Shown here piece after piece: positions 44,254 to 64,000 of a stretch of 64,000 nucleotides of DNA (its first letter is position 1; every line of letters begins with the position of its first letter). A model generated the notes under the pieces. That model worked only from the letters and a program-made list of their open reading frames with translations, was not told the DNA's origin and made no database searches. The translations under genes and the position numbers were made by a program. Source of the DNA: Bradyrhizobium sp. CIAT3101 (GTDB taxonomy: Bacteria > Pseudomonadota > Alphaproteobacteria > Rhizobiales > Xanthobacteraceae); assembly GCF_029714945.1 (NCBI RefSeq), contig NZ_CP121634.1, positions 5,911,001-5,975,000 on the forward strand. Reading direction: 5' to 3'.

Positions 44254-44358
44254 TGTTTCCTCCATTTTTTGGTCGCCGATTCACCGGAGGGCCAGCGACC
44301 TTGCCCCTACCCGCGCCGCGCAATGAACTTGTTGGTCATGCGCTGCGCCTGACTTCGA

Positions 44359-46928: not shown

Positions 46929-46975
46929 ACTTTCCTCCCGTCGCCCTGCGAGACGCTGGTACGATGGTGACATAT

Positions 46976-47488: not shown

Positions 47489-48739
47489 ATGTTGAAAGGC
47501 AGTCTAGGACTGATCGCGTTGAGCAGCCTGTTGTTGTCGGGCACGGCCTTCGCGCAGGAGAAGATCAAGGTCGGCGTCACCGCGACGCTCGAAGGCACCT
47601 ACACCGTGCTCGGCGAGGACGGCATCCGCGGCTTCCAGACCGCACTCAACGTGCTCGGCAAGAAGGTCGGCGACAAGGAACTCGAATTCGTCATTGCCTC
47701 GACCAATGCGACGCCCGATTCCGCGGTTCGCGCCGTGCGCAAGCTGATTGAGCAGGACAAGGTGCAGATCCTGCTGTCTCCGCTGTCAGGCGACGAGGGC
47801 ATCGCGGTCAAGAATTTTGCCAAGACCCATCCCGAGCTGACCTTCATCAACGCCGCCTCCGGCGCGCAGGAAACGACCTATGTCGATCCAGCCCCGAACT
47901 TCTTCCGCTACAACATGGACGGCGCGCAGTGGCAGGTCGGCCTCGGCAAATATGCCTATGACGAAAAGAAGTATCGAAAGATCGCGACCGTCGGCGAGGA
48001 CTATTCCTTCATCTACACCCAGGTGTTCGGCCTCGTGCTCGAATTCTGCGGCGCCGGCGGACAGGTCACCAACCGGCAATGGGTGCCACTCGGCACCAAG
48101 GATTTTGCCTCGGTCATCGCCGCGCTGCCTGACGACGTCGACGCGATCTATCTCGGCCTCGGCGGCGCCGACGCCGTCAACTTCCTCAACCAGTACCAGC
48201 AGGCGGGCGGCAAGGCCCATCTGATGGGCGGCTCGATCATGATCGACCAGACCATTTTGTCGTCCAAGGGCAACGCCAAGAACGCGCTGGTCGGCACGCT
48301 CGCCGCGAGCGGTCAGGCCGATACCTGGGAGGATCCGGGTTGGCAGAAGTTCGTGAAGGACTACCAGGACGCCTTCCCACCGAACAAGCGGTTCCCGAGT
48401 CCGTCGCTGCTCGCCACCAATTATTACGGCTCGACCATGGCGCTGATTCTGGCGCTGCGTCAGGTCAACGGCGATCTCAGCGACAACCAGTCCAAGTACA
48501 AGGCCGCGCTGGCGAAGATCGAGCTCGATGCGCCCAACGGCAAGATCAAGCTCGACGCCAACCGTCAGGCGATCGGCACCAACTTCGTCACCGAAGTCGT
48601 CGACGACGGCAAGGGCGCGTTGTTCTCGAAGGTCGTGAAGGTGATCCCGAACGTGAACCAGACGCTGGGCTACGACCCCGCCGTGTTCGCCAAGATCGGC
48701 TTGCCAAGCCGTACAGTACCGGAATGTAAGAAGTACTGA
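47489..48739 (+). CDS. Branched-chain amino-acid-type ABC substrate-binding protein
   Basis: A 416-residue periplasmic receptor of the LivJ/UrtA/AmiC type. A Sec signal (LGLIALSSLLLSGTAFAQ) ends at AFA-Q. The mature part begins KIKVGVTATLEGTYTVLGEDGIRGF, followed by DKVQILLSPLSGDEGIAVKNFA, TFINAASGAQETTY and ATVGEDYSFIYTQVFG. The ATG at 47489 follows GGGAGGAGAG; the frame to 47402 is not preferred. Many members bind amides, aromatic acids or urea rather than amino acids. It is the first gene of region D. An AraC regulator gene separates it from the permease genes. Confidence 0.92.
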   Translation: MLKGSLGLIALSSLLLSGTAFAQEKIKVGVTATLEGTYTVLGEDGIRGFQTALNVLGKKVGDKELEFVIASTNATPDSAVRAVRKLIEQDKVQILLSPLSGDEGIAVKNFAKTHPELTFINAASGAQETTYVDPAPNFFRYNMDGAQWQVGLGKYAYDEKKYRKIATVGEDYSFIYTQVFGLVLEFCGAGGQVTNRQWVPLGTKDFASVIAALPDDVDAIYLGLGGADAVNFLNQYQQAGGKAHLMGGSIMIDQTILSSKGNAKNALVGTLAASGQADTWEDPGWQKFVKDYQDAFPPNKRFPSPSLLATNYYGSTMALILALRQVNGDLSDNQSKYKAALAKIELDAPNGKIKLDANRQAIGTNFVTEVVDDGKGALFSKVVKVIPNVNQTLGYDPAVFAKIGLPSRTVPECKKY

Positions 48740-48769
48740 CGTAGTCGCATCAGCGACGCCATGACTGAT

Positions 48770-48822
48770 CGGGGAGAGATTTGCGAAGAGCGCGACACGT
48801 GCGCCCTTGCATTCTCTCCCCG
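48770..48822 (+). repeat. Inverted repeat between binding-protein and AraC genes
   Basis: CGGGGAGAGA (48770-48779) and TCTCTCCCCG (48813-48822) are perfectly complementary over 10 bases, with a 33-base loop that itself contains GCGC...GCGC. It may act as an attenuating or transcript-end structure downstream of the strongly expressed binding-protein gene. No T-run follows. Confidence 0.6.
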
Positions 48823-48869
48823 GTTGTTGAACGCTATCAAAAAAGACAAAAGCTTCCGGGAGAGAAGGC

Positions 48870-49697
48870 ATGAGCCGGGCGCTCGCCGTCTTCCACGGCC
48901 GCTTCGGCCGGGCGACGGTCTATCAGTTGAACCGCCCCTTCAACATCCACGCACATCGCGAAGGTCATTTGATCTTCCATGTCGGGGGCCGTCCCGCATG
49001 TATCGATGTCAACGATGGACGTTACGAGCTCACCGAAGGCTCCGTCGTCGCGGTCAATCCGTGGGAGCCGCATAATTTCCTCCCGTCTGATCTCGACGGC
49101 GGCGCGGTCTTCTTCGTGCTCTATGTCAATGCGGAGTGGTTCGCGCCCGATGCGCCCGGCGCCGACCGCCTGCGCTTCGGACGCACCCAGTTCGCGCGAT
49201 CGGTCGCACTGGACAAGCATATCCGGCACGCAGCGGCCCTTGTGTGCGGCGCACCCTCGCTGAATAGCCTCGATGGCGAGCTGAGAAGCCTGATCGACAT
49301 CTGCTACGACGAAAGCTGGCAGCAGGCCGAGCTCACGCGGGATCCGCGCGCGAATGGCTCCGTCACCGATTTTCGCGTTCGCAAGTGCATCAAGATGATG
49401 TCGGAGAGCCCCGGCGCCGAGATCGAGCTCGATACCATCGCGCGCGAATCCGGCCTGTCGCGACCGCATTTCTACCGGCTGTTCCGCACCCAGACCGGCG
49501 TTACCCCTCACCTCTATCTCAACACGCTGATGATGGAGCAGGCGCTGGAGGCGCTGGTGGCGAGCGAAGCGCCGATCGCCGATATCGGCTTCGATCTCGG
49601 CTTCTCCTCGCAGAGCGGGTTCACCCGTTTCTTCGCCGCCAATGTCGGGATGGCGCCGACCGATTATCGCCGCGCGGCCAAGGTTTTGCGCGGCTGA
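48870..49697 (+). CDS. AraC-family transcriptional regulator
   Basis: A 275-residue regulator: an N-terminal cupin-like sensor domain (HAHREGHLIFHVGGRPACIDVN; VVAVNPWEPHNF) and a C-terminal double helix-turn-helix (ELDTIARESGLSRPHFYRLFRTQTGVTP; IADIGFDLGFSSQSGFTRFFAANVGMAPTDYRRA, landmarks). GGGAGAG precedes the ATG. Its placement inside the transporter locus makes it the likely ligand-responsive activator of the whole region. An 8-bp palindrome lies downstream at 49762-49785, before the permease genes. Confidence 0.92.
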   Translation: MSRALAVFHGRFGRATVYQLNRPFNIHAHREGHLIFHVGGRPACIDVNDGRYELTEGSVVAVNPWEPHNFLPSDLDGGAVFFVLYVNAEWFAPDAPGADRLRFGRTQFARSVALDKHIRHAAALVCGAPSLNSLDGELRSLIDICYDESWQQAELTRDPRANGSVTDFRVRKCIKMMSESPGAEIELDTIARESGLSRPHFYRLFRTQTGVTPHLYLNTLMMEQALEALVASEAPIADIGFDLGFSSQSGFTRFFAANVGMAPTDYRRAAKVLRG

Positions 49698-49761
49698 CGA
49701 ACGCGCGAAAAGATACTCACGATCAAATGCCCTCCCGTGCGTCCCATTAGGATGCGCAGAA

Positions 49762-49785
49762 CGCGATCCCGACTAGAGGATCGCG
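49762..49785. repeat. Palindrome upstream of the Liv-type permease genes
   Basis: CGCGATCC (49762-49769), loop CGACTAGA, GGATCGCG (49778-49785), perfect 8-bp arms, in the 201-base gap between the AraC gene and the permease gene at 49899. It could be a transcript-end stem of the araC gene or a binding palindrome for the downstream operon. Confidence 0.5.
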
Positions 49786-49898
49786 GTCGATAGGGAGCGC
49801 ATGTTCATGGCAGGGCTTGCGGCCGGCAACGGTCTGCGTGCCCCCTCACCTCGCTTGAACGCAGAGGGTTGGAGGGACGTGACGATGGAGCGGCGATC

Positions 49899-50909
49899 AT
49901 GACCCGCTTTGTCGAACGCCATCCGGCATGGGCGCTGATTGTCATCATCGCCGTCGCAGTCGCGCTGTGGCTGATCTTCGCCGTATGGCCCCTGGGGCTT
50001 GAAGAGGCGATCGGTCGCAAGCGCGTGTTCCTCAACGCGGTCTTCAACGGCATCACGCTCGGCGGTCTCTATTTCCTCGTCGCCAGCGGCTTCACGCTGA
50101 TCTTCGGCCTGATGCGCAACGTCAACCTCGCGCACGGCTCGCTCTATCTGTTCGGCGGCTATGTCGGCTACGCCATCAGCGCCTCGACCGGCTCCTGGAT
50201 CCTGTCCTTCATCGTTGCCTTCATCCTGACGGCGCTGGTCGGCGTCCTGCTTCAGGTTCTGGTGTTCCGCCGCATGGAGGGCCAGGATCTGCGCCAGACC
50301 ATGGTGACGATCGGGCTTTCGATCGTGTTCGCCGATCTCATGCTGTGGGCCTGCGGCGGCGACTTCTATCAGATCCAGACCCCGAACTGGCTGATCGGCC
50401 CCATCGAGCTGCCACTGATCACCGCGGTGAAATCCTCGGGCGAACCGGTCTATCTGCGCTATCCGCTGGTGCGGCTTGTGATCTTCCTGGCCTCCGTGAT
50501 CATCGGCATCGCGATGTGGCTCGCGCTCAACCGCACCCGGATCGGCATGATCATCCGCGCCGGTGTCGACGATCGTGACATCCTTGCCGCGACTGGCGTG
50601 CGCATCCAGATCGTCTTCGTGCTGGTCTTCGCGCTCGGCGCCGGGCTTGCCGGCATCGCAGGCGTCGTGGGCGGCACCTTCCAGTCACTCTCCCCCGGTG
50701 AGGACATCCGTTTCCTGCTCGCATCCCTCGTGGTCGTGATCGTCGGCGGCATGGGCTCGATACCAGGCGCCGCGCTCGGCGCGCTGATCATCGGCCTCGC
50801 CGAGCAACTCGGCTCGGTCTACATCCCGACCTATGCCATCGTCGTGACGTTCCTGATCATGGTGCTGGTGCTGGCGCTTCGGCCGCAGGGCCTGCTCGCG
50901 AGGCGCTGA
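49899..50909 (+). CDS. Branched-chain-type ABC transporter permease (LivH-like)
   Basis: A 336-residue integral membrane protein of the LivH/UrtB family. An N-terminal extra helix (ALIVIIAVAVALWLIFAVWPLG) precedes the family core: LNAVFNGITLGGLYFLVASGFTLIFGLMRNVNLAHGSLYLFGGYVGY (landmarks), GVDDRDILAATGVRIQ and GMGSIPGAALGALIIGLAEQLG. ATG 49899 has GGAG eight bases upstream. It is followed with one base spacing by the LivM-like gene and belongs to the long operon that seems to run to the right edge. Confidence 0.93.
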   Translation: MTRFVERHPAWALIVIIAVAVALWLIFAVWPLGLEEAIGRKRVFLNAVFNGITLGGLYFLVASGFTLIFGLMRNVNLAHGSLYLFGGYVGYAISASTGSWILSFIVAFILTALVGVLLQVLVFRRMEGQDLRQTMVTIGLSIVFADLMLWACGGDFYQIQTPNWLIGPIELPLITAVKSSGEPVYLRYPLVRLVIFLASVIIGIAMWLALNRTRIGMIIRAGVDDRDILAATGVRIQIVFVLVFALGAGLAGIAGVVGGTFQSLSPGEDIRFLLASLVVVIVGGMGSIPGAALGALIIGLAEQLGSVYIPTYAIVVTFLIMVLVLALRPQGLLARR

Positions 50910-50910
50910 C

Positions 50911-51999
50911 ATGTCCGTCACCCACGATGCCCGCGTCCAGATTCACAAGCCCGCCCCGACGGCACAGCGGCCGGCCGTACGCGGCTGGCCCGACGTCAAC
51001 AATCCCGCGGCCTGGATCGTGGCGGTCATCCTCCTGATCATGCCGCTGATCGCCAACGGCTTCTTCCTGATCGAGATCTTCGCGACCACGCTGATCCTCG
51101 GCACCATCGCGCTCAGCTTGATGTTCCTGGCAGGTTACGGCGGCATGGTCAGCCTGATGCAGCTCACCATCGCAGGCTTCTGCGCCTACATGGTCGCGGT
51201 GTTCGGCACCAGCGACAACGCCAATATCAGCCTGGGCTGGCCGTGGTGGCTGGCGGTACCGATGGCGCTGACACTCGCAACCATCTTCGGCACGCTCGGC
51301 GGCGCACTCGCGGTGCGCACCGAGGGCATCTACACCATCATGATCACGCTCGCGATCGGCGCAGCCTTCTACTACTTCACCAACCAGAACTGGGCGATCT
51401 TCAACGGCCACACCGGCATCAACAACGTCGGGACGCCGCGCTTCTGGGGCGTCAACTGGCGCGCCGACATCCCCTTCTATTACATCGTGCTTGCAGTCGC
51501 CGCGCTCTGCTATTTTGCGGTCGACTACATCTCCCGGGCGCCGTTCGGGCTCGCGCTCCAGGGCGTGCGCGACAATCCGCGCCGCATGGCCGCGCTCGGC
51601 TTCAACGTCAATGCCCACCGCGTCGCCGCTTATGCGGTCGCGTCCTTCATCGCCGGGCTCGCGGGCGTGCTCCAGGTCTGGAATTATCGCCAGATCTCGC
51701 CCGGCTCGGTCAGTGTCGGCGCCTGCATCGATATCCTCATCATTGCTGTCGTCGGCGGCATCACCCGGCCGGTCGGCCCCTACATCGGTGCACTGGTGTT
51801 CGTGCTCCTGCGCACCTTCGCGCTGGATTTCCTGGTCAAGATCGGACTCGACGGCAACCGTTTCCGGCTGCTGATCGGACTTGGCTTCCTCGCCATCGTG
51901 TTCTGGTCGTCAGATGGCGTGATCGGCCTGTGGCAACGCTGGCGCCAGAGCCAACGTCCCTCGTCAGATCGCCCGGGCGGAGGGCGCGGCCATGGATAG
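50911..51999 (+). CDS. Branched-chain-type ABC transporter permease (LivM-like)
   Basis: A 362-residue integral membrane protein. Family landmarks: LAGYGGMVSLMQLTIAGFCAYMVAVFG, GALAVRTEGIYTIMITLAIGAAFYYF, ALQGVRDNPRRMAALGFNVNAHRVAAYAVASFIAGLAGVLQVW (landmarks) and a C-terminal GLGFLAIVFWSSDGVIGLW. The GVRDNPRRMAALGF segment is the coupling loop. It overlaps the LivG-like gene by eight bases. Confidence 0.93.
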   Translation: MSVTHDARVQIHKPAPTAQRPAVRGWPDVNNPAAWIVAVILLIMPLIANGFFLIEIFATTLILGTIALSLMFLAGYGGMVSLMQLTIAGFCAYMVAVFGTSDNANISLGWPWWLAVPMALTLATIFGTLGGALAVRTEGIYTIMITLAIGAAFYYFTNQNWAIFNGHTGINNVGTPRFWGVNWRADIPFYYIVLAVAALCYFAVDYISRAPFGLALQGVRDNPRRMAALGFNVNAHRVAAYAVASFIAGLAGVLQVWNYRQISPGSVSVGACIDILIIAVVGGITRPVGPYIGALVFVLLRTFALDFLVKIGLDGNRFRLLIGLGFLAIVFWSSDGVIGLWQRWRQSQRPSSDRPGGGRGHG

Positions 52000-52774
52000 C
52001 GTCGCCCAGCGCCTCTCCGCCGTCGGCGCCGGCGCGGCCCTCGAGCTCCGCGGTGTCACCCGGCTGTTCGGCGCGCTGGCGGCGCTGACCGACGTCACCA
52101 TCACCGTGCGGCCCGGCGAGCGGCGCGCCGTGCTCGGCTCCAACGGCGCCGGCAAGACCACGCTGTTCAACTGCATCACCGGCGACTTTCCGCCGACATC
52201 GGGCACGATCCGCTTCTTCGGCGAGGACGTGACGCACTTCCCGCCCTATGAACGTATCCGCCGCGGGTTGCGGCGGACCTATCAGATCTCCGCACTGTTC
52301 CCCGGCCTCACGGTGCAGGACAATGTCTACCTCGCCTGCCGTGGCGTCTCGCGCGGACGGTTCTCGTTCCTGCGTCCCGGCCAGAACGATGCGCTGATGC
52401 ACGCGGCCGACGGTCTCGTGCAGGCCGTGCACCTCACCGCGGTGAAGGATCAGCGCGTCGCCGAGCTCGCACATGGCCAGCAGCGCCAGCTCGAAATCGC
52501 GCTGGCGCTCGCCGGCGCGCCGCGCTTCGTGCTGTTCGACGAACCTGCCGCCGGTCTCTCACCGACTGAACGGGCCGAACTAGTCGAGATCCTGACCTCG
52601 CTGCCGGCGCATATCGGCTACATCGTCATCGAGCACGATATGGACGTGGCGCTGCGCGTCGTCGAGAGCGTCACGATGATGCATAACGGCCGCATCTTCA
52701 AGGAAGGCGTGCCGGAGGAGATCCAGTCCGACCCCGAGGTGCAGGAGCTTTATCTCGGAGGCGGCCATGAATGA
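51992..52774 (+). CDS. Branched-chain-type ABC transporter ATP-binding protein (LivG-like)
   Basis: A 260-residue ATPase. Walker A is GSNGAGKTTLFNCITGDF, signature AHGQQRQLEIALALAG (the first residues replace the usual LSxGQQR), Walker B FVLFDEPAAGLSPTERAEL and H-loop VIEHDMDVALRVVESVTMMHNG. The C-terminal GVPEEIQSDPEVQELYLGG is a hallmark of LivG. The eight-base overlap with the next gene, which carries the LivF domain, supports tight coupling of both ATPases. Confidence 0.94.
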   Translation: MDSVAQRLSAVGAGAALELRGVTRLFGALAALTDVTITVRPGERRAVLGSNGAGKTTLFNCITGDFPPTSGTIRFFGEDVTHFPPYERIRRGLRRTYQISALFPGLTVQDNVYLACRGVSRGRFSFLRPGQNDALMHAADGLVQAVHLTAVKDQRVAELAHGQQRQLEIALALAGAPRFVLFDEPAAGLSPTERAELVEILTSLPAHIGYIVIEHDMDVALRVVESVTMMHNGRIFKEGVPEEIQSDPEVQELYLGGGHE

Positions 52775-54983: not shown

Positions 54984-54986
54984 CCG

Positions 54987-55820
54987 ATGGCCCGGTTTGA
55001 ACGCGCGACCCTGTTGAAACGGTTTCGTGAGATGGCGAAGCGCGGCGAGCCGATCGTCGGCGGCGGTGCCGGTACCGGCCTGTCGGCCAAATGCGAGGAA
55101 GCCGGCGGCGTCGATCTCATCGTGATCTACAATTCCGGCCGCTATCGCATGGCGGGTCGCGGCTCGCTCGCAGGCCTCATGCCCTATGGCGACGCTAACG
55201 CCATCGTGCTTGAGATGGCCGGTGAAGTGTTGCCCGTCGTCAGCAAGACGCCGGTGCTCGCCGGCGTCAACGGCACCGATCCATTCCGCGACATGGATGT
55301 GTTCCTCGACCAGCTCAAGTCGCTCGGCTTCGCCGGCGTGCAGAACTTTCCGACCGTCGGCCTGATCGACGGCGTGTTCCGCGCGAACCTCGAGGAAACC
55401 GGCATGTCCTACGCGCTGGAGATCGACATGATCGCCAAGGCACGCGAGAAGGATTTGCTGACGACGCCTTATGTCTTCAGCGAGAAGGAAGCCGCCGCGA
55501 TGGCCATCGCCGGCGCCGACATCATCGTCTGCCATCTCGGGCTCACCACCGGCGGTACGATCGGCGCGCAGACCGCGCCCAAGCTCAAGGACTGTCCGGC
55601 GCGCATCGACATTTGGGCGTCGGCCGCGCTCAGCGTCAACCCGGACATCCTCGTGCTCGCTCATGGCGGCCCGATCGCGGATCCGGCGGATGCCGATTTC
55701 ATCATGAAGAACACCCGTTACTGCCACGGCTTCTACGGCGCCTCCTCGATGGAGCGGCTGCCGGTAGAGCGGGCTTTGACGGAACAGGTACGCAAATTCA
55801 AGGCGATTGGCGCGCCCTAA
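54987..55820 (+). CDS. Phosphoenolpyruvate hydrolase-like TIM-barrel protein (Tm-1 C-terminal domain type)
   Basis: A 277-residue TIM-barrel protein of the family annotated as PEP hydrolase / Tm-1 C-terminal domain. Landmarks: [52 protein letters not shown] (landmarks in 55050-55200), [37 protein letters not shown], and [19 protein letters not shown]. It starts three bases after the UPF0261 domain gene ends, reproducing the domain order of plant Tm-1 as two separate proteins. Function is not established in bacteria; a small-molecule enzyme acting on the imported ligand is a reasonable guess. Confidence 0.88.
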
Positions 55821-55846
55821 CGCCTGTCAGATTGAGGGAGGGAAAC

Positions 55847-58753
55847 ATGTCAGGGATCCTGGTCGGCGAGTTCATCCTCTGGCTGATCGTCGCTGTTATC
55901 GTGATCGTGGTTGGCGTCTACATCGTCAACTGGCTGTATCACCGCTCCTCCAAGGAGGTGTCGTTCGTCCGGACCGGCTTCCTCGGCGAGCGCGTGGTGA
56001 TCAACGGCGGTGCCTTCGTGCTGCCGTTCATCCACGACTACACGCCTGTGAACATGAACGTGCTGCCGATGGGCATCGTGCGTTCGCGGCAGGACGCCGT
56101 GATCACCCGCGACCGCATGCGCGTCGACATCGAGGCCGACTTCTACGTCCGGGTCCAGGCCACCCGCGAAGCCGTCTCGATCGCCGCCGCGACGCTCGGC
56201 CGCCGCACCATGGAGCCGGAACAGCTCCACGCGCTGCTGGCCGGCAAGTTCATTTCCGCGATCCGATCGGTCGCATCCGAAATGACCCTCGAAGAGATGC
56301 ACGAACGCCGCGGCGACTATGTCACACGCGTCAAGACCAATGCCGCCGAAGCGCTCGCCCAGAACGGCCTCGAGCTCGAATCCGTCGCCATCACCGATCT
56401 CGACCAGACCGATCTCGAATTCTTCAATCCCTCGAACCGCTTCGACGCCGAAGGCTTGACCCGGCTGATGGAGGACATCGAGGCCAGGCGCAAGTTGCGC
56501 AACGACATCGAGCAGGACTCGATGATCAAGATCCGCACCCGCAATCTGGAAGCCGAGCGTCAGGCGCTCGAGATCGAGCGCGAGAGCGAGACCGCGCGGC
56601 TGGAGCAGGAACGCGATATCGAGATGCGCCGCGCGCTTCAGCGCACCGAAGTCGCCCGCGAACGAGCGCTGCGCGAAACCGAGGCCGAGCAGGCCCAGAT
56701 CTCGGCGCGCGAGGCGATCGAACGCTCCCGGATCGCCAACGATCAGGCGATTGCCGAGGCCCGTATCGCTTCCGAGCGCGAGACGCGCCAGAAGGAGATC
56801 GAGCGCACCCGCACCATCGAAGAGAAGGAACTGCTCGCCCGCGAGGATATCGAGAAGACCCGGATCGCCAACCAGCGCTCGATCGACACGACACGCATCG
56901 CGTCGGAACGCGAGGTCCGCCAGCACGAGATCGAGCGGATGCGCACGGTCGAAGAAGCCGAAATCGCGGCACGCGAGGCGATCGAGAAGGCCCGGATTCA
57001 GCAGGACCGCGTCGTCACCGATGCCCGCATCGCCAATGAAGAGGAGACGCGGCGCCGCGAGATCGAGCGCACCCGCGCCGTCGACGAGGCCGAGATCGCG
57101 GCCCGCGAAGCCACCGAGAAGGCGCGCATCGCCCAGACGCTGATCGTCAATGTCGAGCGCATCTCCTCGGACGAGCGCACCCGCGCACTGGAGATCCAGC
57201 AGGTGCGCTCGATCCAGGAAGCTGAAATCGAGGCGCAGCGCGCCGTGGAGGCTGCCCGCATCGCCCGCGAACGGACGCTCGCCGCCGAGCGCATCGCCGC
57301 CGAGCAAAACACGCGGCAGCTCGAAATCGAGCGCAACCAGAGCCTCGAAGTTGCCGGCATTGCAGCGCGTGAGACCACCGAGGCCTCCCGCATCGCGCAG
57401 GAGGAACGTGTCCGCTCCCTGGAGATCGCTCGCAACCGCGCCGTCGAGGAGGCCGACATCGCCTCGCGCGAGGCGATCGAGGCAGCCCGTATCGCGCAGG
57501 AGAAGACCGTCGCCGCCGAGCGTATCCAGGCCGAGCGCGACACCCGCTCGCTCGAAATCGAACGCACCGGCATTCTGGAAGCCGCCGAGTTGAAGCGGCG
57601 CGACGCCATCGAGCGCCAGCGCATCGTGGTCGATCTCGCGCTGGAGGCCGAACGGATCAACTCCTCGAAGAAGCGCGAGGTGCTCAATATCGAGCAGAAG
57701 AAGGCGATCGAGATCGCTGATGAGGACCGCGTCATCGCCCTCTCCGCCAAGAAATCCGAGCGGATCGATGCCGACCGCCAGGTCCGGCAGGCCGAGATCG
57801 TTGCTCGCAAGGAGGTCGAGACCACCGACGTCTCCCGCGAGCAGGCGCTGGAAGCCGCCCGCCTGGAACGCCGCCGTGCGATCGAGCAGCTCGAGGTCGC
57901 CCGGGTTCAGTCGCTCCAGGAGGCCGAGATCGCCTCCCGCGAGGAGGTCGAGCGCGCACGCATCGCCTCCGACCGCGGCCTCGACGAGGCCCGAATCGGC
58001 CGAGAGCGCGAGTTGCGCAAGCTCGAGGTCAATCGTGAGAAGGAGGTCGAGACGGTCCTGATGGAGAAGGCAATCGCGATCCATCAGAAGTCGCTCGAAG
58101 AGTCCGCCGCCAAGGCGATGGCTGAGGAGGCGCGGATGCGGGCCACCGAAGCGACCGAACGCGTCATCACGGCGCGCGAGAGCGAGATCGCAAAGCGTCG
58201 CAGGACGGTCGAAGTCATGATCGCGGAGAAACAGGCCGAGGAGACGCGAATTGCCGCCGAGGCCGAACGTATCCGCGCGGCTGTCGAGGCCGAGGCGCAG
58301 CGGATGCTCAACGAGGCCGAGAACGTGCTCACCGATCAGGCGCGCTACTCGCTGTTCCGCCGAAAACTGCTCGACCGCATCGAGGGCATCGTGCGCGAGA
58401 GCGTCAAGCCGATGGAGAAGATCGAGGGCATCCGCATCCTCCAGGTCGACGGCCTCAACGGCAACGGCGGCGGGGGCAATGGCGGCCGCAGCGCCACCGA
58501 CGAGGTGATCGACTCGGCGCTGCGCTACCGTGTGCAGGCGCCACTAATCGACTCCCTCCTAGCCGACATCGGCGTCGAGGGCGGAAATCTCGCCAAAATG
58601 CCGGGCCTGATCCGCGAAGCCCGCGACATGCAGGGCATCAAGGAGTCCGCGCGCAAGAGTGGCGGAGGCGGCGACAAGCCGGCGGCGTCGCCGCCTGCAG
58701 CTGAGGGCGGTGGCGAGCCGTCGGCCGAGCGCGGTCCGCGGAAGAAGAGCTGA
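55847..58753 (+). CDS. Giant flotillin/SPFH protein (YqiK-like) with 44-residue coiled-coil repeats
   Basis: A 968-residue membrane-scaffold protein. A transmembrane helix lies at about residues 7-30 (FILWLIVAVIVIVVGVYIVNWLY), followed by the SPFH/band-7 domain (FVRTGFLGERVVINGGAFVLPFIHDYTPVNMNV; LEEMHERRGDYVTRVK). From residue 283 an arginine/glutamate-rich coiled coil begins, built of 44-residue units of the type A-E-I-A-A-R-E-A-I-E-K-A-R-I. The C-terminus (SALRYRVQAPLIDSLLADIG) matches flotillin oligomerisation ends. Usual flotillins have 450-700 residues. ATG 55847 follows GAGGGAGG. It lies between the TIM-barrel and SRPBCC genes of the same operon and could gather transporter and hydroxylase in one membrane patch (inference). 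Confidence 0.9.
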   Translation: MSGILVGEFILWLIVAVIVIVVGVYIVNWLYHRSSKEVSFVRTGFLGERVVINGGAFVLPFIHDYTPVNMNVLPMGIVRSRQDAVITRDRMRVDIEADFYVRVQATREAVSIAAATLGRRTMEPEQLHALLAGKFISAIRSVASEMTLEEMHERRGDYVTRVKTNAAEALAQNGLELESVAITDLDQTDLEFFNPSNRFDAEGLTRLMEDIEARRKLRNDIEQDSMIKIRTRNLEAERQALEIERESETARLEQERDIEMRRALQRTEVARERALRETEAEQAQISAREAIERSRIANDQAIAEARIASERETRQKEIERTRTIEEKELLAREDIEKTRIANQRSIDTTRIASEREVRQHEIERMRTVEEAEIAAREAIEKARIQQDRVVTDARIANEEETRRREIERTRAVDEAEIAAREATEKARIAQTLIVNVERISSDERTRALEIQQVRSIQEAEIEAQRAVEAARIARERTLAAERIAAEQNTRQLEIERNQSLEVAGIAARETTEASRIAQEERVRSLEIARNRAVEEADIASREAIEAARIAQEKTVAAERIQAERDTRSLEIERTGILEAAELKRRDAIERQRIVVDLALEAERINSSKKREVLNIEQKKAIEIADEDRVIALSAKKSERIDADRQVRQAEIVARKEVETTDVSREQALEAARLERRRAIEQLEVARVQSLQEAEIASREEVERARIASDRGLDEARIGRERELRKLEVNREKEVETVLMEKAIAIHQKSLEESAAKAMAEEARMRATEATERVITARESEIAKRRRTVEVMIAEKQAEETRIAAEAERIRAAVEAEAQRMLNEAENVLTDQARYSLFRRKLLDRIEGIVRESVKPMEKIEGIRILQVDGLNGNGGGGNGGRSATDEVIDSALRYRVQAPLIDSLLADIGVEGGNLAKMPGLIREARDMQGIKESARKSGGGGDKPAASPPAAEGGGEPSAERGPRKKS
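56693..58054 (+). repeat. 44-residue (4 x 11) protein repeat inside the flotillin gene
   Basis: Units begin at 56693, 56825, 56957, 57089, 57221, 57353, 57452, 57584 and, after a 69-residue interruption, 57923. All are 132 bases long except the sixth, which is 99 bases (33 residues, 3 x 11). Each starts with an A-x-I-x-A-R-E-like motif and has an A-R-I and an E-I-E-R anchor. The lengths are multiples of 11, implying a hendecad coiled coil. DNA identity between units is only partial, so expansion is old or under protein-level selection. Confidence 0.85.
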
Positions 58754-58763
58754 GGTCAAATCC

Positions 58764-59201
58764 ATGCCCCGCGTCTACGTCTCCACCGTCGTCAATGCGC
58801 GCAACGATCGCGTCTGGGCGCGTGTGCGTGATTTCAACGGCCTCCCCAACTGGCATCCCGCGATTGCTGAGAGCCGCATTGAAGGCGGCGAGCCCTCGGA
58901 CAAGATCGGTTGTGTGAGGGATTTCCGTCTGCGCAACGGCGACCGCATCCGCGAGAAGCTGTTGGGCCTGTCCGACTACGACATGTTCTGCACCTACTCG
59001 ATCCTGGAATCCCCGATGGGCGTCGAGAACTACGTTGCGACCTTACGGCTGACGCCCGTCACCGACGGCGACCAGACCTTTGTGGAATGGACTGCCGAGT
59101 TCGACTGCGCGCCGGAGCGCGAGAACGAGCTCGTCGGCAACATCGGCGGCGGCGTGTTCCAGGGCGGGTTTGACGCACTCAAGCGCGTGTTCGGAGGTTG
59201 A
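58764..59201 (+). CDS. SRPBCC (START-like) family protein 1
   Basis: A 145-residue polyketide cyclase/START-like hydrophobic-pocket protein. Landmarks: VVNARNDRVWARVRDFNGLPNWHPAIAESRIEGG at the N-terminus and GGGVFQGGFDALKRVFGG at the C-terminus. The ATG at 58764 comes after a GAGG. The next gene encodes a second protein of the same layout. SRPBCC proteins of the CoxG type accompany CO dehydrogenase-like Mo hydroxylases and anchor or mature them; the order SRPBCC, FAD, 2Fe-2S, Mo subunit supports the same role here. Substrate delivery is an alternative. Confidence 0.88.
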   Translation: MPRVYVSTVVNARNDRVWARVRDFNGLPNWHPAIAESRIEGGEPSDKIGCVRDFRLRNGDRIREKLLGLSDYDMFCTYSILESPMGVENYVATLRLTPVTDGDQTFVEWTAEFDCAPERENELVGNIGGGVFQGGFDALKRVFGG

Positions 59202-59204
59202 TCC

Positions 59205-59648
59205 GTGCCGCATATCGTCAAAAGCACGATCCTGGACGCGCCGACCGATGCGGCGTGGGCCATGTTGCGTGATTTCAACGGGCACGATCGCTGGCATCCC
59301 GCGGTTGCGACCTCCTCGATCGAGCGCGCGCAATCCTCCGACAAGATCGGTTGCGTCAGGCGGTTCAAACTGAGGGATGGCGCCGAGCTGCGCGAGCAAT
59401 TGCTGGCACTGTCCGACCTCGAACAGAGCTTCAGCTATTGCCTGCTCGATACGCCGATCCCGATGTTCAACTACGTCGCGCATGTCCGCCTGCTGCCGGT
59501 CACCGACGGCGACCGCACCTTCTGGCACTGGGAGTCGCGATTCACGACCAAGCCCGAAGACCGCGACCGCATCACCCACATGGTCGCCGAAGACATTTAC
59601 CAGGCCGGGTTCGAAGCAATCCGCCAGCATCTGAAGGAGGCCGCCTAG
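59205..59648 (+). CDS. SRPBCC (START-like) family protein 2
   Basis: A 147-residue paralogue of the preceding protein: VKSTILDAPTDAAWAMLRDFNGHDRWHPAV at the N-terminus, DKIGCVRRFKLRDGAELREQLLALSD in the middle and the C-terminal DIYQAGFEAIRQHL. The pair shares the DFNG..WHPA and DKIGCVR motifs, showing tandem duplication. Three bases separate it from the first copy and its stop codon is directly followed by the ATG of the FAD-subunit gene. The two may form a heterodimer or serve two partners. Confidence 0.88.
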   Translation: MPHIVKSTILDAPTDAAWAMLRDFNGHDRWHPAVATSSIERAQSSDKIGCVRRFKLRDGAELREQLLALSDLEQSFSYCLLDTPIPMFNYVAHVRLLPVTDGDRTFWHWESRFTTKPEDRDRITHMVAEDIYQAGFEAIRQHLKEAA

Positions 59649-60467
59649 ATGGCCGTGACAGTGAAGACTTTCGCCAGTGCCAGCGAGGCGGCCGGCGCGC
59701 TGTCCTCGGACCGCACCGCGCGATATCTCGGCGGCGGCACGCTGGTGATGCGGGCGCTGAACGAGGGCGATGTGTCGATCTCGACGGTCGTCCGCGCCCA
59801 GGACCAGGCGCTAACCCGGATCGATGCTTCCGGCCCGCGCATCACGCTCGGCGCCGGCGTCACCTTCGCACGCGTCCTTGCCGAACGCGACCTCGGCTTC
59901 CTCCACGCCCCCGCCCGTTCGATCGGCGGCCCTGCCGTGCGCAACATGGGCACCGTCGGCGGCAATCTCTTCGCGCCAAATCCCTATGGCGATTTCACCG
60001 TCGCGTTGCTGGCACTCGATGCCACCGTGGCCGTCGCAGGCGGCTTCGGCTCGCGGGATATCCCGATCGAAGAATTCTTGCAGGCGCGCGAGCGACAGGC
60101 CGGAACGTTAGTCTTGTCGGTCTCCTGCACCCGGCCGGCAAGCAGCGAGGCATTCCGCTATCGCAAGATTGCCCGCATCAAGCCAAAGGGCGGCTCGGTC
60201 ATCACGCTGGCTGCGCATCTACCGATCAGCGGCGGCCGGATCGCGGGCGCGCGGATCGCATTGGGTTCGATGGCACCGACCCAGATCCGCGCCCGCGCCG
60301 CCGAGCGGGCACTGGAGGGCCGCTCGCTGGACGCCGCGACCATTGCGGCGGCCGCATCCGCCGCCACCGAGGGAACATCGCCATCCGACAACGCGCTCGG
60401 CAGCGCCTGGTATCGCCGCGAGATCGTCGGCGTCCACCTGCGCCGCCTGCTGTCGGGACAGGAATAA
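59649..60467 (+). CDS. Molybdenum hydroxylase FAD-binding subunit (CoxM-like)
   Basis: A 272-residue FAD subunit of a xanthine dehydrogenase/CO dehydrogenase-family enzyme, passing electrons from the 2Fe-2S protein to an acceptor. FAD contacts are recognisable: YLGGGTLVMRALNEG (first FAD loop) and GGPAVRNMGTVGGNLFAPNPYGDF (the TxGGN loop). The C-terminal CO_deh_flav_C part shows a YRKIARIKPKGGSVI stretch and AWYRREIVGVHLRRLL. It is immediately followed by the 2Fe-2S gene. Note RNMGTVGGN in place of the common RNxGTIGGN, which is conservative. Confidence 0.92.
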   Translation: MAVTVKTFASASEAAGALSSDRTARYLGGGTLVMRALNEGDVSISTVVRAQDQALTRIDASGPRITLGAGVTFARVLAERDLGFLHAPARSIGGPAVRNMGTVGGNLFAPNPYGDFTVALLALDATVAVAGGFGSRDIPIEEFLQARERQAGTLVLSVSCTRPASSEAFRYRKIARIKPKGGSVITLAAHLPISGGRIAGARIALGSMAPTQIRARAAERALEGRSLDAATIAAAASAATEGTSPSDNALGSAWYRREIVGVHLRRLLSGQE

Positions 60468-60473
60468 GCGGTC

Positions 60474-60950
60474 ATGTCCAAAATTCCCCTGCAATTCCGA
60501 CACAACGGCCGCGACGTCGCGATCTTCGTCGATGGCGGCACCAATCTCCTAGTCGCGCTGCGCGAGCTGATCGGCGACATGACGCCGAAATTCGGCTGCG
60601 GCCAGGGCGGCTGCGGCACCTGCAGCGTGCTGATCGACGGCGAGCTTCACCTCTCCTGCCTGACGCTGGCGGAGACCGTCGCCGGCCGCTCCGTCGAGAC
60701 GCTCGACGGCATGAAGCAGGGCCCGAACCTGCATCCGCTGCAGCGCGCCTTTGCCGACCAATTTGCCGCTCAGTGCGGCTATTGCACGCCGGGCATGCTG
60801 ATGGCCGCAAAAGCCCTGCTCGATCGCAATCCCTCGCCGAGCCGCGATGAGGTCATTGAAGCCATCTCCGGCAACATCTGCCGCTGCACCGGCTACGAGC
60901 CGATCATCAATGCCATCCTCGCCGCCGCTGGCGGCCGGGTCAGCGCCTAA
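60474..60950 (+). CDS. Molybdenum hydroxylase 2Fe-2S subunit (CoxS-like)
   Basis: A 158-residue two-cluster iron-sulfur protein. The plant-type ferredoxin cluster is bound by the C-x(4)-C-x(2)-C set of FGCGQGGCGTCS together with the later cysteine in LSCLTLAE; the helical-domain cluster is bound by CGYC and CRC in QCGYCTPGMLM and GNICRCTGYEPI. All eight cysteines are present, so electron transfer from the Mo site to FAD should work. It lies 6 bases after the FAD subunit gene and 12 bases before the first Mo-subunit gene. Confidence 0.95.
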   Translation: MSKIPLQFRHNGRDVAIFVDGGTNLLVALRELIGDMTPKFGCGQGGCGTCSVLIDGELHLSCLTLAETVAGRSVETLDGMKQGPNLHPLQRAFADQFAAQCGYCTPGMLMAAKALLDRNPSPSRDEVIEAISGNICRCTGYEPIINAILAAAGGRVSA

Positions 60951-60962
60951 GGGAACGCGACC

Positions 60963-62558
60963 ATGCTGGAACTTCGCAAGGACATCTTCGCCGACGAGCG
61001 CGACGACAATCTGAAGGAGATCGGCAAAGGCACGCAACGTCAGGACATGCTCGGTCACGTCACGGGCACGTCCAGCTATTTCAACGACCACAAGCTGCAG
61101 GGCATGCTGCATCTGAAAGTCGTCCGCTCGACGCAGGCGCATGCGAGGATTCGTCGCATCGACACGGCCGAGGCCGAGCGCTCGTCCGGCGTGCGCCGGA
61201 TCATCCGCGGCGCCGACGTGCCGGTGAACCTCAACACGCTTTTGAGCCTGATCAATTTCGGCAAGGACGACGAGCCGTCGCTTGCCGTCAACAAGGTCCG
61301 TTACAAGGGCGAGCCGATCGTCGCCATCGTTGCCGACAGCGAGCGCGAGGCCTTTGAAGCGATCGCCAAGGTCAAGGTCGATTACGAACCGCTCGCGGCC
61401 GTGTTCGACGTCGAGGACGCGCTGAAGCCCGGTGCGCCCGTGGTCAATGAGACCTATCCCAAGAACACCTTCACCTATCACGAGACCTACGACCACCAGC
61501 GGCTGCGCTTCGGCGACGCCGACGCGGCGCTGGCGACCGCCGACCACGTGCTCGAGCAGCGCTACCAGATGTCGCCGATCGAGCATGCACCGACCGAGAC
61601 CAATGGCGCGATCGCAGCCCCGGACACCAACGGCCGTTATGTCGTCTACACCTCCACGCAGGCGCTGTTCTTTTCGGTCGACACCTGCGCAAAGATCCTG
61701 GACGTGCCGTCCAACACCTTCCACTTCATCGGCGGCACCGTCGGCGGCGGTTTTGGCGGCAAGGTCGATACGCTGACCGAGCCGCTGGCCATCCTCGGTG
61801 CGATGCTGACCGGGCGGCCCGTGCGCTACGTGTTCGGACGCGAGGAGGAGATGCAATATGGGCCGCCACGCGGCGCCGAACGCATCTACATCAAGGATGG
61901 CGTGATGCGTGACGGCCGCATCGTCGCGCGCAAGATCCGCGCCTATTTCGACAGCGGCGCCTATACGCGGCTATCGAGCTACGCCGCGGTGAAATGCGCC
62001 GCGCATCTGCCGGGCCCCTACACCATTCCAAACGTCTATGGCGACGTCTATTGCGTCTTCACCAACCGCACGCCAGCGACCGCCATGCGCGGTTTCGGCG
62101 TGACCGCGATGGACTTTGCCATCGAGTGCCAGATGGACAAGCTGGCTCACATCATCAACATGGATCCGATGGAGTTCCGGATCCTCAACGCCTATCGCGA
62201 CGGCGACATGAAGGCGCACCGGCGCGAAGCCAAGAACACCGCGTTGATCGAATGCGTCCAGGTCGCGGCCGAAAAAGCAAAATGGCCGCTCCGCGAGGAG
62301 TTCAAGCGGGCCTCCTCGCGCAAGGACGGCGGCGGTAGCCGCGCCGTCATCCCGCCGACCCCCACGGATTCGTCGCGCGCACGGCCTACCGCCCCGGCGC
62401 AGCAGCGCACCAGCTACGATCGGTTGCCGCCGAGCGTTACGCGCGAACCGCCGCGAGAGCCGCCACCACCGGCTCCTCCGCCGCCCGCGCCGCGGCCGAC
62501 TGCGCCGTCGCATGGCGCGACCCGTTTCTCCTCCGTCTTTGGCACCAGGAGGCGCTAG
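60963..62558 (+). CDS. Molybdenum hydroxylase Mo-subunit, N-terminal half with proline-rich tail
   Basis: A 531-residue protein holding the first part of a CoxL/XdhB-like large subunit. It starts with the a/b hammerhead domain (DMLGHVTGTSSYFNDHKL; YKGEPIVAIVADSEREAFEAI), then the first molybdopterin-binding domain with TVGGGFGGKVDTLTEPLAILGAMLTGRPV and TAMRGFGVTAMDFAIE. At about residue 448 homology ends and a low-complexity tail of about 80 residues begins, rich in Pro, Arg, Ser and Thr (EPPREPPPPAPPPPAPRP). The TAG stop at 62556 is followed at once by the ATG of the second half. Full-length homologues are about 780-800 residues in one chain. Confidence 0.9.
   Translation: MLELRKDIFADERDDNLKEIGKGTQRQDMLGHVTGTSSYFNDHKLQGMLHLKVVRSTQAHARIRRIDTAEAERSSGVRRIIRGADVPVNLNTLLSLINFGKDDEPSLAVNKVRYKGEPIVAIVADSEREAFEAIAKVKVDYEPLAAVFDVEDALKPGAPVVNETYPKNTFTYHETYDHQRLRFGDADAALATADHVLEQRYQMSPIEHAPTETNGAIAAPDTNGRYVVYTSTQALFFSVDTCAKILDVPSNTFHFIGGTVGGGFGGKVDTLTEPLAILGAMLTGRPVRYVFGREEEMQYGPPRGAERIYIKDGVMRDGRIVARKIRAYFDSGAYTRLSSYAAVKCAAHLPGPYTIPNVYGDVYCVFTNRTPATAMRGFGVTAMDFAIECQMDKLAHIINMDPMEFRILNAYRDGDMKAHRREAKNTALIECVQVAAEKAKWPLREEFKRASSRKDGGGSRAVIPPTPTDSSRARPTAPAQQRTSYDRLPPSVTREPPREPPPPAPPPPAPRPTAPSHGATRFSSVFGTRRR
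62547..62552 (+). promoter_or_regulatory. Ribosome-binding site for the second Mo-subunit half
   Basis: AGGAGG lies in the last codons of the first half, six bases before the ATG at 62559. A near-perfect signal at this spot shows that the second half is translated on its own and is not a frameshifted remnant. Confidence 0.8.
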
Positions 62559-63581
62559 ATGGCCCGGCACCGCGGACGCGGCATCGCGTCGATCAATTAT
62601 CCCATCGGCATGAATCTTGGCGGCGACCCCAGCCAGGCGCTGGTGCATTCCAACCCGAGCGGCAAGTTCACGGTGGCGCTGTCGTCTATCGATCTCGGCC
62701 AGGGCATGAAATCGGTGACGCGGCAGATCTGCGCGGAGACGCTGGGCGTGCCGGTCGAGGATGTCTATGTCGACACCGCGGATTCCGACACCGGCCCACA
62801 TTGCATGGGCTCGTTCGCCTCACGCGGGACGCATCGCGTCGGCAACGCGGTGATGGCGGCGGCCCGCGAGGCCCGCGGCGTGATGATGGAAGCCGCCGCC
62901 GAGGAACTGGAAGTCAACGCCGCCGATCTCGAAACCGACGGACGCGGCAACATCCACGTCAAGGGCGCGCCGCATCGCTCGATCTCGACCAAGGACGTCG
63001 CGATCGCGGCGCAGTTCAAGCAGGGCAAGACCATCTCCGGCCGCGGCATCTTCCTGGTGCCGCTCTCCGAAGTGAATCCGGAGACGGGCGAGATGTCGCC
63101 CGCAACCTGCTACGCCCACGCCTGCCTCGTCGCCGAGGTCGATGTCGACGACGAGACCGGCGAGGTCGCGATGGTGCGGATGGATTCCGCTTACGAGCTC
63201 GGCCGTGCCCTCAATCCACGCCTGGTCGAGCAACAGCTGGTCGGCGGTGCCTGGATGGGTGTCAGCCATGCACTCTACGAAACGCCCGAACCTTACTATC
63301 CCGAGCCCGTACACGGCCCGCGCGATTTCGTCGAATATCTGATGCCCGGCCCCGGCGATATCTGCCCGCACGATATCGCCGTGCTGGAGCGCCCCGCGCC
63401 TGATGGGCCATTCGGAGCCAAGGGTCCCGGCGAGATGTGCGCCAACCCCGTGCTGCCGGCGGTTGCCAACGCGATCTTCAACGCGGTCGGCGTGCGTATC
63501 GACGATCTGCCGATTACGCCGGAAAAAGTGCTGCGCGCGATCAAAGCCCAGGGCGGCGCGCGGCCGCAGGCGCGGCGCTAG
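62559..63581 (+). CDS. Molybdenum hydroxylase Mo-subunit, C-terminal half
   Basis: A 340-residue protein starting exactly where the second molybdopterin-binding domain of CoxL/XDH would continue (RGRGIASINYPIGMNLGGDPSQAL, landmark). It has FTVALSSIDLGQGMKSVTRQICAETLGVP, DSDTGPHCMGSFASRGTHRVGNAV, the AYELGRALNPRLVEQQLVGG helix region and the conserved glutamate E292 of the GAKGPGEM motif, the catalytic base in this family. With the preceding protein it would rebuild a complete active site. Only the junction between the halves is abnormal; both parts keep their conserved residues. The MoxR-type gene follows after 12 bases. Confidence 0.9.
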   Translation: MARHRGRGIASINYPIGMNLGGDPSQALVHSNPSGKFTVALSSIDLGQGMKSVTRQICAETLGVPVEDVYVDTADSDTGPHCMGSFASRGTHRVGNAVMAAAREARGVMMEAAAEELEVNAADLETDGRGNIHVKGAPHRSISTKDVAIAAQFKQGKTISGRGIFLVPLSEVNPETGEMSPATCYAHACLVAEVDVDDETGEVAMVRMDSAYELGRALNPRLVEQQLVGGAWMGVSHALYETPEPYYPEPVHGPRDFVEYLMPGPGDICPHDIAVLERPAPDGPFGAKGPGEMCANPVLPAVANAIFNAVGVRIDDLPITPEKVLRAIKAQGGARPQARR

Positions 63582-63593
63582 AGGTTTCGGTTG

Positions 63594-64000
63594 ATGGCGG
63601 TCCGCAGCAACATCGTCGGCATCGACAGCCCGGAGGCGCTTGAGAGAGCGTTGCGCGCGGCCTATTACCTCGCCGACGAGGGCCTCGCGACCGCCGCCTA
63701 TCTCGGCCTCGCGCTCGGCAAGCCGCTGCTGCTGGAGGGCGCGCCGGGTGTCGGCAAGACGGAAGCGGCAAAAGCCATCGCCGCCGTGCTCGGCCGCCGA
63801 TTGATCCGCTTGCAATGCTACGAGGGTATCGACGCCTCCGCCGCGCTCTACGAATGGAACTATCCGCGCCAGATGCTGGCGATCCGCCAGGCCGGCGACG
63901 AGAGCATCGATATCTATGGCGAGACGTTCCTGATCGAGCGTCCTATGCTGGCGGCGTTGCGCGCGCCCGACTCGACGGTGCTGTTGATCGACGAGATCGA
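63594..64000 (+). CDS. MoxR-like AAA+ ATPase (CoxD-like), 3' end beyond the window
   Basis: First 135 residues of a MoxR-family AAA+ ATPase. Walker A is EGAPGVGKTEAAKAIA (residues about 49-64) and Walker B is VLLIDEIE at the window edge. In CO dehydrogenase clusters the CoxD ATPase, with a von Willebrand-domain partner, helps mature the metal active site; its position after the Mo-subunit genes fits. The rest of the gene and any VWA partner lie outside the window. Confidence 0.9.
   Translation, partial: MAVRSNIVGIDSPEALERALRAAYYLADEGLATAAYLGLALGKPLLLEGAPGVGKTEAAKAIAAVLGRRLIRLQCYEGIDASAALYEWNYPRQMLAIRQAGDESIDIYGETFLIERPMLAALRAPDSTVLLIDEI

Follow-up and report, generated by a model that had tools for sequence, protein, structure and literature searches.

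A candidate catabolic operon of Bradyrhizobium combining a Liv-type importer, a Tm-1-like protein pair, a long flotillin and a tailed molybdenum hydroxylase

Genes of the locus

The stretch analysed here (the window; 64,000 nucleotides, C1:5911001-5975000) comes from Bradyrhizobium sp. CIAT3101, whose 9.37 Mb genome is a single contig with Bradyrhizobium as its closest relatives. The right-hand part of the window carries, all on the plus strand, an importer of the branched-chain (HAAT/Liv) type, a UPF0261 (Tm-1-like) domain with a TIM-barrel partner, a long flotillin, two SRPBCC proteins and a molybdenum (Mo) hydroxylase. These genes keep one order in close relatives, a core of them recurs in a second operon type that has a different oxidoreductase, and the Mo subunit bears a conserved C-terminal tail in the flotillin-containing loci. 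We propose that uptake and first oxidation of a small organic nutrient may be gathered on the flotillin.

All genes named in the original prediction are in place. As it had stated, the periplasmic binding protein of the importer (Peripla_BP_6, 47489..48739; nearest solved relative 4zpj) and an AraC-type regulator (48870..49697) lie just upstream, and from 49899 rightwards the genes run on one strand with gaps of 0-20 bases or short overlaps. Genes were assigned by domain scan. Two BPD_transp_2 permeases (49899..50909 and 50911..51999), a LivG-type ATPase (51992..52774) and a LivF ATPase (ABC_tran) complete the importer, which is related to the Urt urea importer and misses its equivalog cut-offs (UrtB 166.9/250.3, UrtC 95.3/296.2, UrtD 205.3/304.1, UrtE 218.8/285.8). 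LivF is fused in a single open reading frame (ORF) of 738 amino acids (aa; 52767..54983) to the UPF0261 N and C domains (199.8 and 306 bits; cut-off 27 each). The gene that follows (54987..55820) is predicted by sequence to encode a PF09370 TIM barrel, the UPF0261 partner, with a full-length PEP_hydrolase match of 432.2 bits (cut-off 33.8) and 399.9 bits to 2p10 (Mll9387).

The flotillin (55841..58753, 970 aa) comprises an N-terminal hydrophobic stretch, a Band_7 domain (61.2 bits; cut-off 23.6), a long periodic stretch and a Flot domain (132.6 bits; cut-off 27), and misses the FloT equivalog cut-off (22.7/700). It is followed by two PF10604 proteins, SRPBCC-1 (58764..59201) and SRPBCC-2 (59205..59648), and by four ORFs with the domains of a xanthine oxidase-type Mo hydroxylase, all above Pfam cut-offs (FAD_binding_5 and CO_deh_flav_C; Fer2 and Fer2_2; Ald_Xan_dh_C, MoCoBD_1 and MoCoBD_2). 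These encode a FAD subunit (59649..60467), a 2Fe-2S subunit (60474..60950) and a Mo subunit split over two adjacent genes, the N-half (hammerhead and MoCoBD_1, 60963..62558) and the C-half (MoCoBD_2, 62559..63581). The last 84 codons of the N-half (62304..62555) form the tail, a proline-rich linker ending in RFSSVFGTRRR. With both halves summed, the Mo subunit misses the xanthine dehydrogenase and 4-hydroxybenzoyl-CoA reductase cut-offs (TIGR03194, 253.3 + 205 vs 994.55; NF043082, 279.6 + 152.4 vs 780).

A MoxR-type AAA+ ATPase starts at 63594 (TTG at 63591), is cut by the window edge at 64000 and is complete at L004:2591-3475. Beyond the window, at L004:3472-8582, follow a CoxE-type VWA protein (PF05762, 163 bits), which had been predicted to lie there, an Amidohydro_2 protein, a metallo-beta-lactamase-fold (MBL) protein related to acyl-homoserine lactone (AHL) lactonases, an SGL lactonase and isochorismatase-type hydrolase fused in one protein, and a Flavodoxin_2 protein, past which the next long ORFs lie partly on the opposite strand. 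A consensus scan placed no plus-strand terminator-like site between operon genes, which is weak evidence, as such scans also miss real sites; its sole plus-strand site falls within livG. There was no Rfam match at gathering cut-offs. For the NCBIfam names MadB and MadC, no meaning could be traced. Upstream and outside the operon, at 43102-46973 on the minus strand, a ribose-type sugar ABC importer (binding protein, permease and double ATPase) was recognised by eye.

Conservation of the unit and its two operon types

Close relatives were defined as the best 80 of 569 relatives by TIM protein match (78 titled Bradyrhizobium, one Frankia and one an Alphaproteobacteria metagenome-assembled genome). 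Fifteen genes, from the binding protein to the Mo C-half, stand in the same order and on one strand in 70 of the 70 loci free of contig-end cuts, and the remaining 10 of the 80, truncated at contig ends, show the same arrangement in the part that is present. Eighteen genes or gene parts are under purifying selection, with ratios of nonsynonymous to synonymous substitution rates (dN/dS) of 0.02-0.20 in three pairs (AmdH being absent from one pair) and of 0.03-0.04 for SRPBCC-1. The operon on the contig titled Frankia sp. RB7 (L007) has a TIM 99% identical to that of the window and probably reflects a mislabelled or mixed assembly.

Beyond the close relatives, TIM, flotillin, Mo C-half and SRPBCC-1 were used as queries against an evenly drawn sample of 199 genomes of the order. 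The Mo C-half was found at E <= 1e-70 in 35 genomes. In 25 of them the flotillin lies no more than 10 kb away and SRPBCC-1 no more than 8 kb; 23 of these also have TIM within 14 kb. Five genomes lack a nearby flotillin of this family (G105, G015, G172, G120 and G087), and five could not be judged because their assemblies are fragmented, with parts on different contigs; contig ends account for G114, G184 and G024 by coordinates, and for G183 and G103 this is inferred from parts spread over several contigs. The co-occurrence in other Rhizobiales, named in the original prediction as a check, is borne out, and the importer/Tm-1 and flotillin/Mo parts do not occur independently in most genomes. Counted from the TIM side, there are 62 places at >=63% identity (fragment G171:C112 and TIM paralogues at <=40% identity set aside); the flotillin lies within 4 kb of 33 of them, SRPBCC-1 within 7 kb of 40 and the Mo C-half within 14 kb of 24. 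Five of the 289 genomes of a class sample contain the Mo C-half at E <= 1e-90, namely the window's, three from other orders with the full unit (G345, G356, G328) and one with two copies lacking the tail (G392). The operon also occurs on plasmids of Shinella zoogloeoides Teo12 and the marine rhodobacterial Yoonia sp. SS1-5, the latter with two additional short-chain dehydrogenase/reductase genes and a fumarylacetoacetate (FAA) hydrolase gene. Three genes on the Yoonia plasmid (L175), namely livG, TIM and the Fe-S gene, give matches in two frames apiece and have no annotated protein; they are either broken or misread in the record. On a plasmid of the haloarchaeon Salinigranum rubrum (L176), a split Mo hydroxylase lacking the tail is accompanied by a cyclase gene and an SRPBCC gene, and its Mo C-half is 60% identical. 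These distributions support the view that the gene set is one conserved unit. Searches of the open-access literature, by title and abstract, yielded no description of this gene set, in line with its having been put forward as undescribed; to the extent of these searches, the novelty lies in the combination, the dedicated flotillin and the tail, the component families being known.

Comparison of fetched stretches of up to 20 kb revealed two operon types sharing a core of importer, LivF-UPF0261 fusion, TIM, flotillin and SRPBCC pair. Type I, that of the window, has the order AraC, importer, LivF-UPF0261, TIM, flotillin, SRPBCC-1, SRPBCC-2, FAD, Fe-S, Mo N-half, Mo C-half, MoxR, VWA and amidohydrolase; downstream, the SGL-isochorismatase gene is present in 15 of the 16 stretches reaching far enough and the MBL gene in 13, G100 having neither. 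Type II has the core with no AraC match and no such Mo enzyme, and its SRPBCC-2 is fused to a zinc-type medium-chain dehydrogenase/reductase (MDR) oxidoreductase, as one open frame in 15 of 15 loci; the MDR part was found in 14 type II loci and on a plasmid of the betaproteobacterium Variovorax paradoxus. An FAA hydrolase, an alpha/beta hydrolase and an amidohydrolase stand alongside in most type II loci, and TIM is present in 13 of 15. In one type II stretch (L191) an unrelated-looking Mo enzyme (31-32% identity) lies nearby on the other strand. In a UPF0261 tree of 55 rows with midpoint root, the type I rows form one group (SH-aLRT, an approximate likelihood-ratio test, 99) lying among type II rows. 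No TIM gene was found between UPF0261 and flotillin in three operons (L163, L157 and L160, of G157, G105 and G120), so the core TIM gene can be lost. The system is thus one conserved unit, as first described, yet it is wider than the window suggested, with more conserved catabolic genes downstream, and modular: type II operons have the core but lack the Mo enzyme, and elsewhere the UPF0261-TIM pair stands alone.

The fusion of LivF and UPF0261 is a constant of these operons. Among loci with both parts visible, a single ORF spans them in 79 of 79 close relatives and in 36 of 38 others (in this and the tail tally, the row group labelled 'Brady' comprises the 80 fetched loci and three plasmid loci, L179-L181). 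Of the 36 fused others, 35 show the flotillin, and the sequence of the remaining one stops there. L141 and L142, where the two parts are separate, are Liv-type operons without flotillin. In these two relatives (L141:8656-9576 and L142:8736-9671) two SRPBCC domains are fused in a protein of about 306 aa directly after the TIM gene. The UPF0261-TIM pair also stands alone beside sugar importers, cupins, Gfo/Idh/MocA enzymes and sigma-54 regulators with a TIM domain. At 97% or more, 85 of 416 positions of UPF0261 (55 rows) and 116 of 277 of TIM (52 rows) are kept, a degree of conservation that fits enzymes. UPF0261 was considered as a remote DUF1537 kinase and this was rejected, hhalign finding no similarity between the families with the DUF1537 side represented by one sequence. 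At L138:8074-10418, a gene with the sugar-kinase domains PF07005/PF17042 occupies the place of UPF0261, with a PF09370 TIM gene directly 3' of it and, by eye, a RuBisCO-like protein and a beta-keto acid cleavage enzyme as neighbours. The window's genome has a second, diverged UPF0261-TIM pair (L135, C1:8230000-8249999), near a regulator-sized ORF with a TIM domain and, by eye, a large FAD-binding dehydrogenase.

The flotillin and the tail of the molybdenum subunit

Bacterial flotillins are thought to organise membrane patches, and to our knowledge it is mostly unknown which enzymes belong to which of them. The flotillin of this operon is tied to its genomic context. In the order sample, matches at E <= 1e-114 stand beside TIM and/or SRPBCC-1 in 38 of 38 places (37 genes, one split over two contigs), and weaker matches do so in 1 of 38. 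This cut leaves G062 (E 1.4e-92) outside despite its context, and weak fragments in G114, G009 and G176 are in neither list, that of G114 being a contig-edge piece adjoining SRPBCC-1. In the class sample, 10 of 10 places at E <= 1e-112 outside the window's genome lie in such operons; contexts were read for G237 and G381 among the weaker class-sample matches and for 3 of 12 plasmid records. Outside the class, two genomes of a 200-genome phylum sample contain the flotillin at E <= 1e-90. Within the sampled genomes, we therefore regard it as a candidate subfamily dedicated to these presumed catabolic operons. Between Band_7 and Flot, residues of about 220-790 (~570 aa) show 11- and 44-residue periodicity, and total length is 873-1167 aa in type I (n=23) and 534-859 aa in type II and two related loci (n=15). 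Calling it 'giant' is fair at 970 aa next to a flotillin whose helical wall measures 186 aa (PMC11260169), although the term is relative, as operon-type relatives span 873-1167 aa.

The Mo N-half is 526-628 aa long in type I loci and 454-459 aa in Mo modules without flotillin, the difference being the C-terminal tail. Its linker of 71-168 aa contains 16-30% proline, compared with 5% in the core of the window's protein, and leads to RFSS(I/V)xGxRRR or a close variant (for example RFSSVFGTRRR, RFSSISGLRRR, SRFISGTRRR or RFASNSIGRRR). Across 21 representatives the last three arginines are kept in all 21 and the glycine column in 20. The motif is present in 70 of 70 complete close-relative copies, letter for letter in 67, with codons that vary synonymously and almost no amino-acid change. 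It recurs in every other type I locus for which the complete Mo N-half could be read (20 of 20), Shinella among them. Outside this count remain the type I genomes G101, G160, G115, G181, G183, G114, G103, G024 and G184 and the same-genus G112, G143 and G194; in Sinorhizobium sp. BG8 (L197) the Mo N-half is frame-broken and enters neither tail count. The motif is absent from all nine flotillin-less Mo copies (G015, G105, G087, G120, G172, two in G392, Nonomuraea and Salinigranum), where the absence of flotillin holds as far as each stretch goes, some being short (L186 is a 4.6-kb contig). Three of these genomes (G105, G087 and G120) do encode a type II flotillin at another locus, and their Mo N-half is still without a tail. 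Among ORFs of at least 60 aa in the loci numbered before L182-L198, a loose form of the motif matched the Mo N-half and about eleven other ORFs, none of the latter an operon gene by position or frame as judged by eye.

We read the end of the tail as a candidate docking peptide for a flotillin scaffold. The contrast between a free linker and a fixed end argues for an end that is bound, though a single gain of the tail is weaker support than repeated gains would be. A role as a handle for MoxR and VWA was rejected because five of the nine tail-less modules keep both (L155, L156, L158, L161 and L177), and a handle for SRPBCC was rejected since one tail-less module (G105, L156) keeps an SRPBCC gene. 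Cargo peptides of encapsulins and microcompartments resemble the tail in form, being short conserved terminal peptides after a flexible linker. Such a reading was likewise set aside: encapsulin PF04454 occurs in 0 of 19 type I genomes (family-2 encapsulins were not searched for), and the bacterial microcompartment (BMC) shell family PF00936, present in 8 of the 19, lies on other contigs or 1 Mb away and is absent from the window's genome.

Proposed role, alternatives and relation to known systems

Based on these observations, we propose, with about even confidence, that the operon brings the uptake of a single small organic nutrient and its first oxidation together at the inner membrane, on a scaffold formed by a dedicated flotillin. 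In this hypothetical scheme (i) the Liv-type importer would bring the compound in; (ii) the enzyme-like UPF0261 domain on the importer ATPase, with its TIM-barrel partner, would hold its step at the importer; (iii) the long flotillin would form a membrane-seated scaffold; (iv) the SRPBCC pair would bind a hydrophobic substrate or product and pass it to the oxidoreductase; (v) the Mo/Fe-S/FAD hydroxylase would be held at the scaffold through the flexible proline-rich tail and its terminal RFSSxxGxRRR peptide, after maturation by MoxR and VWA; and (vi) the lactonase- and amidase-type hydrolases would open and cleave the product. The dedicated flotillin, the fusion on the importer ATPase, the SRPBCC-oxidoreductase fusion of type II and the tail of type I would all be explained if importer, SRPBCC carriers and oxidoreductase came together on such a scaffold or cage. 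The substrate-channelling membrane patch of the original prediction is, in the same conditional sense, given a physical handle by the tail. As for the compound, the hydrolases suggest lactone and amide cleavage; a heterocycle or lactone-forming substrate is only a lead, and our best guess, at low confidence, is a ring compound that would be hydroxylated and then opened. A bolder version, in which the flotillin forms a tall membrane-seated cage enclosing the oxidising enzymes at the importer mouth, with the Mo hydroxylase as cargo via RFSSxxGxRRR on a disordered linker, the type II oxidoreductase held via its SRPBCC fusion and wall length varying with operon type, seems rather unlikely to us; if true, bacteria would have a previously unseen type of catabolic compartment, bounded half by membrane and half by a wall of protein.

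Several results weigh against the scaffold proposal. The Mo module appears able to work alone, because it stands without the flotillin in 5 of 35 genomes. The tailed copies lie on one side of one branch (100/99) in a Mo C-half tree of 29 rows, which makes the link between tail and flotillin a single evolutionary event, the tail apparently having been gained once and then kept. It tracks the importer and UPF0261 as closely as the flotillin, and TIM less so (G157 and G100 are tailed, with no TIM beside the flotillin). No type II gene ends in the motif in the order loci scanned, so docking by the RFSSxxGxRRR peptide is not a general rule of the core. Finally, the structure model of UPF0261 is poor (mean pLDDT, the predicted local distance difference test, 58.4).

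An alternative, which we consider a real though tentative possibility, is an ordinary catabolic operon whose genes are co-regulated for a single pathway. The flotillin would then help with membrane quality or stress in general, and the tail, having no part in a scaffold, would aid the solubility or folding of the split Mo subunit. Co-inheritance of operon neighbours requires no physical assembly, and the Mo enzyme would need neither flotillin nor tail, since modules without both exist, five of nine keeping MoxR, VWA and amidohydrolase. However, a tail serving only solubility would not be expected to preserve its last 11 residues almost unchanged while the linker before them varies freely, and a general helper fits poorly with a flotillin whose strong matches are confined to these operons in the sample and whose type I members exceed in length those of type II and two related loci. 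Another reading, improbable in our judgement, gives the Mo subunit a different partner: its tail would bind the LivF-UPF0261 importer ATPase or the SRPBCC pair instead of the flotillin. The ATPase fusion and the SRPBCC genes are present in the tailed type I loci as far as the stretches reach, and the ATPase is itself extended by a tethered domain; for SRPBCC, the tail-less module in G105 noted above argues against partnership, and by sequence the importer and the flotillin are equally compatible as partners, no result separating them. That the locus is a cox-type aerobic CO dehydrogenase cluster with extra genes is very improbable, and this identity was rejected: both Mo halves fall far below the large-subunit equivalog cut-offs (TIGR02416, 177.8 + 118.3, i.e. 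296 bits, vs 991; NF040766, 159.4 + 145.4 vs 950), the XdhC/CoxF family is absent among the proteins scanned, an importer and hydrolases for an organic compound lie within the operon, and the segment at what we take to be the position of the copper-cysteine motif of CO dehydrogenases reads TPATAMRGFGVT. What does speak for it is the placing of MoxR and a CoxE-type VWA after the structural genes, where coxD and coxE lie in cox clusters.

In sum, one flotillin subfamily is tied to catabolic operons and one enzyme carries a candidate docking peptide found only there among the examined loci, making flotillin cargo recruitment testable through about eleven residues. Among known systems, the nicotinate dehydrogenase of Eubacterium barkeri (3hrd) also has its Mo subunit in two chains, 3hrd_B being the best solved relative of the C-half (162 bits); the split named in the original prediction has a precedent there. 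Nicotinate dehydrogenase and the other Mo hydroxylases of N-heterocycles differ in that we know of no flotillin, Tm-1 pair or Liv importer in those systems, and the N-half tail with its motif was confined to type I operons in our data. Aerobic CO dehydrogenase (cox) clusters likewise combine a three-part Mo enzyme with MoxR (CoxD) and VWA (CoxE), the arrangement of coxD and coxE after the structural genes being described in PMC4240915. The same source proposes that CoxG, an SRPBCC protein, brings CO dehydrogenase to the membrane, which may be a fair parallel for the SRPBCC role suggested here, although the SRPBCC genes of this operon encode PF10604 proteins of ~145 aa and importer, flotillin and hydrolases are added. 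In plants, tomato Tm-1 included, the UPF0261 and PF09370 domains are fused (PMC5028733), and here they stand side by side; the Tm-1 structure 3wry matches the UPF0261 part of LivF-UPF0261, which is fused to the importer ATPase here and is a separate gene in the other bacterial loci seen. The homologues of this plant virus-resistance protein would thereby gain a defined setting in uptake and catabolism. Like flotillin cages and bacterial membrane microdomains, the flotillin described here has Band_7 and Flot domains and an N-terminal hydrophobic stretch. Human flotillins form a cone-shaped membrane cage, 22 nm high, with a wall of 186-aa helices (PMC11260169), whereas the protein in the present operon has ~570 aa with 11-residue periodicity in the corresponding stretch and is encoded within one presumed catabolic operon.

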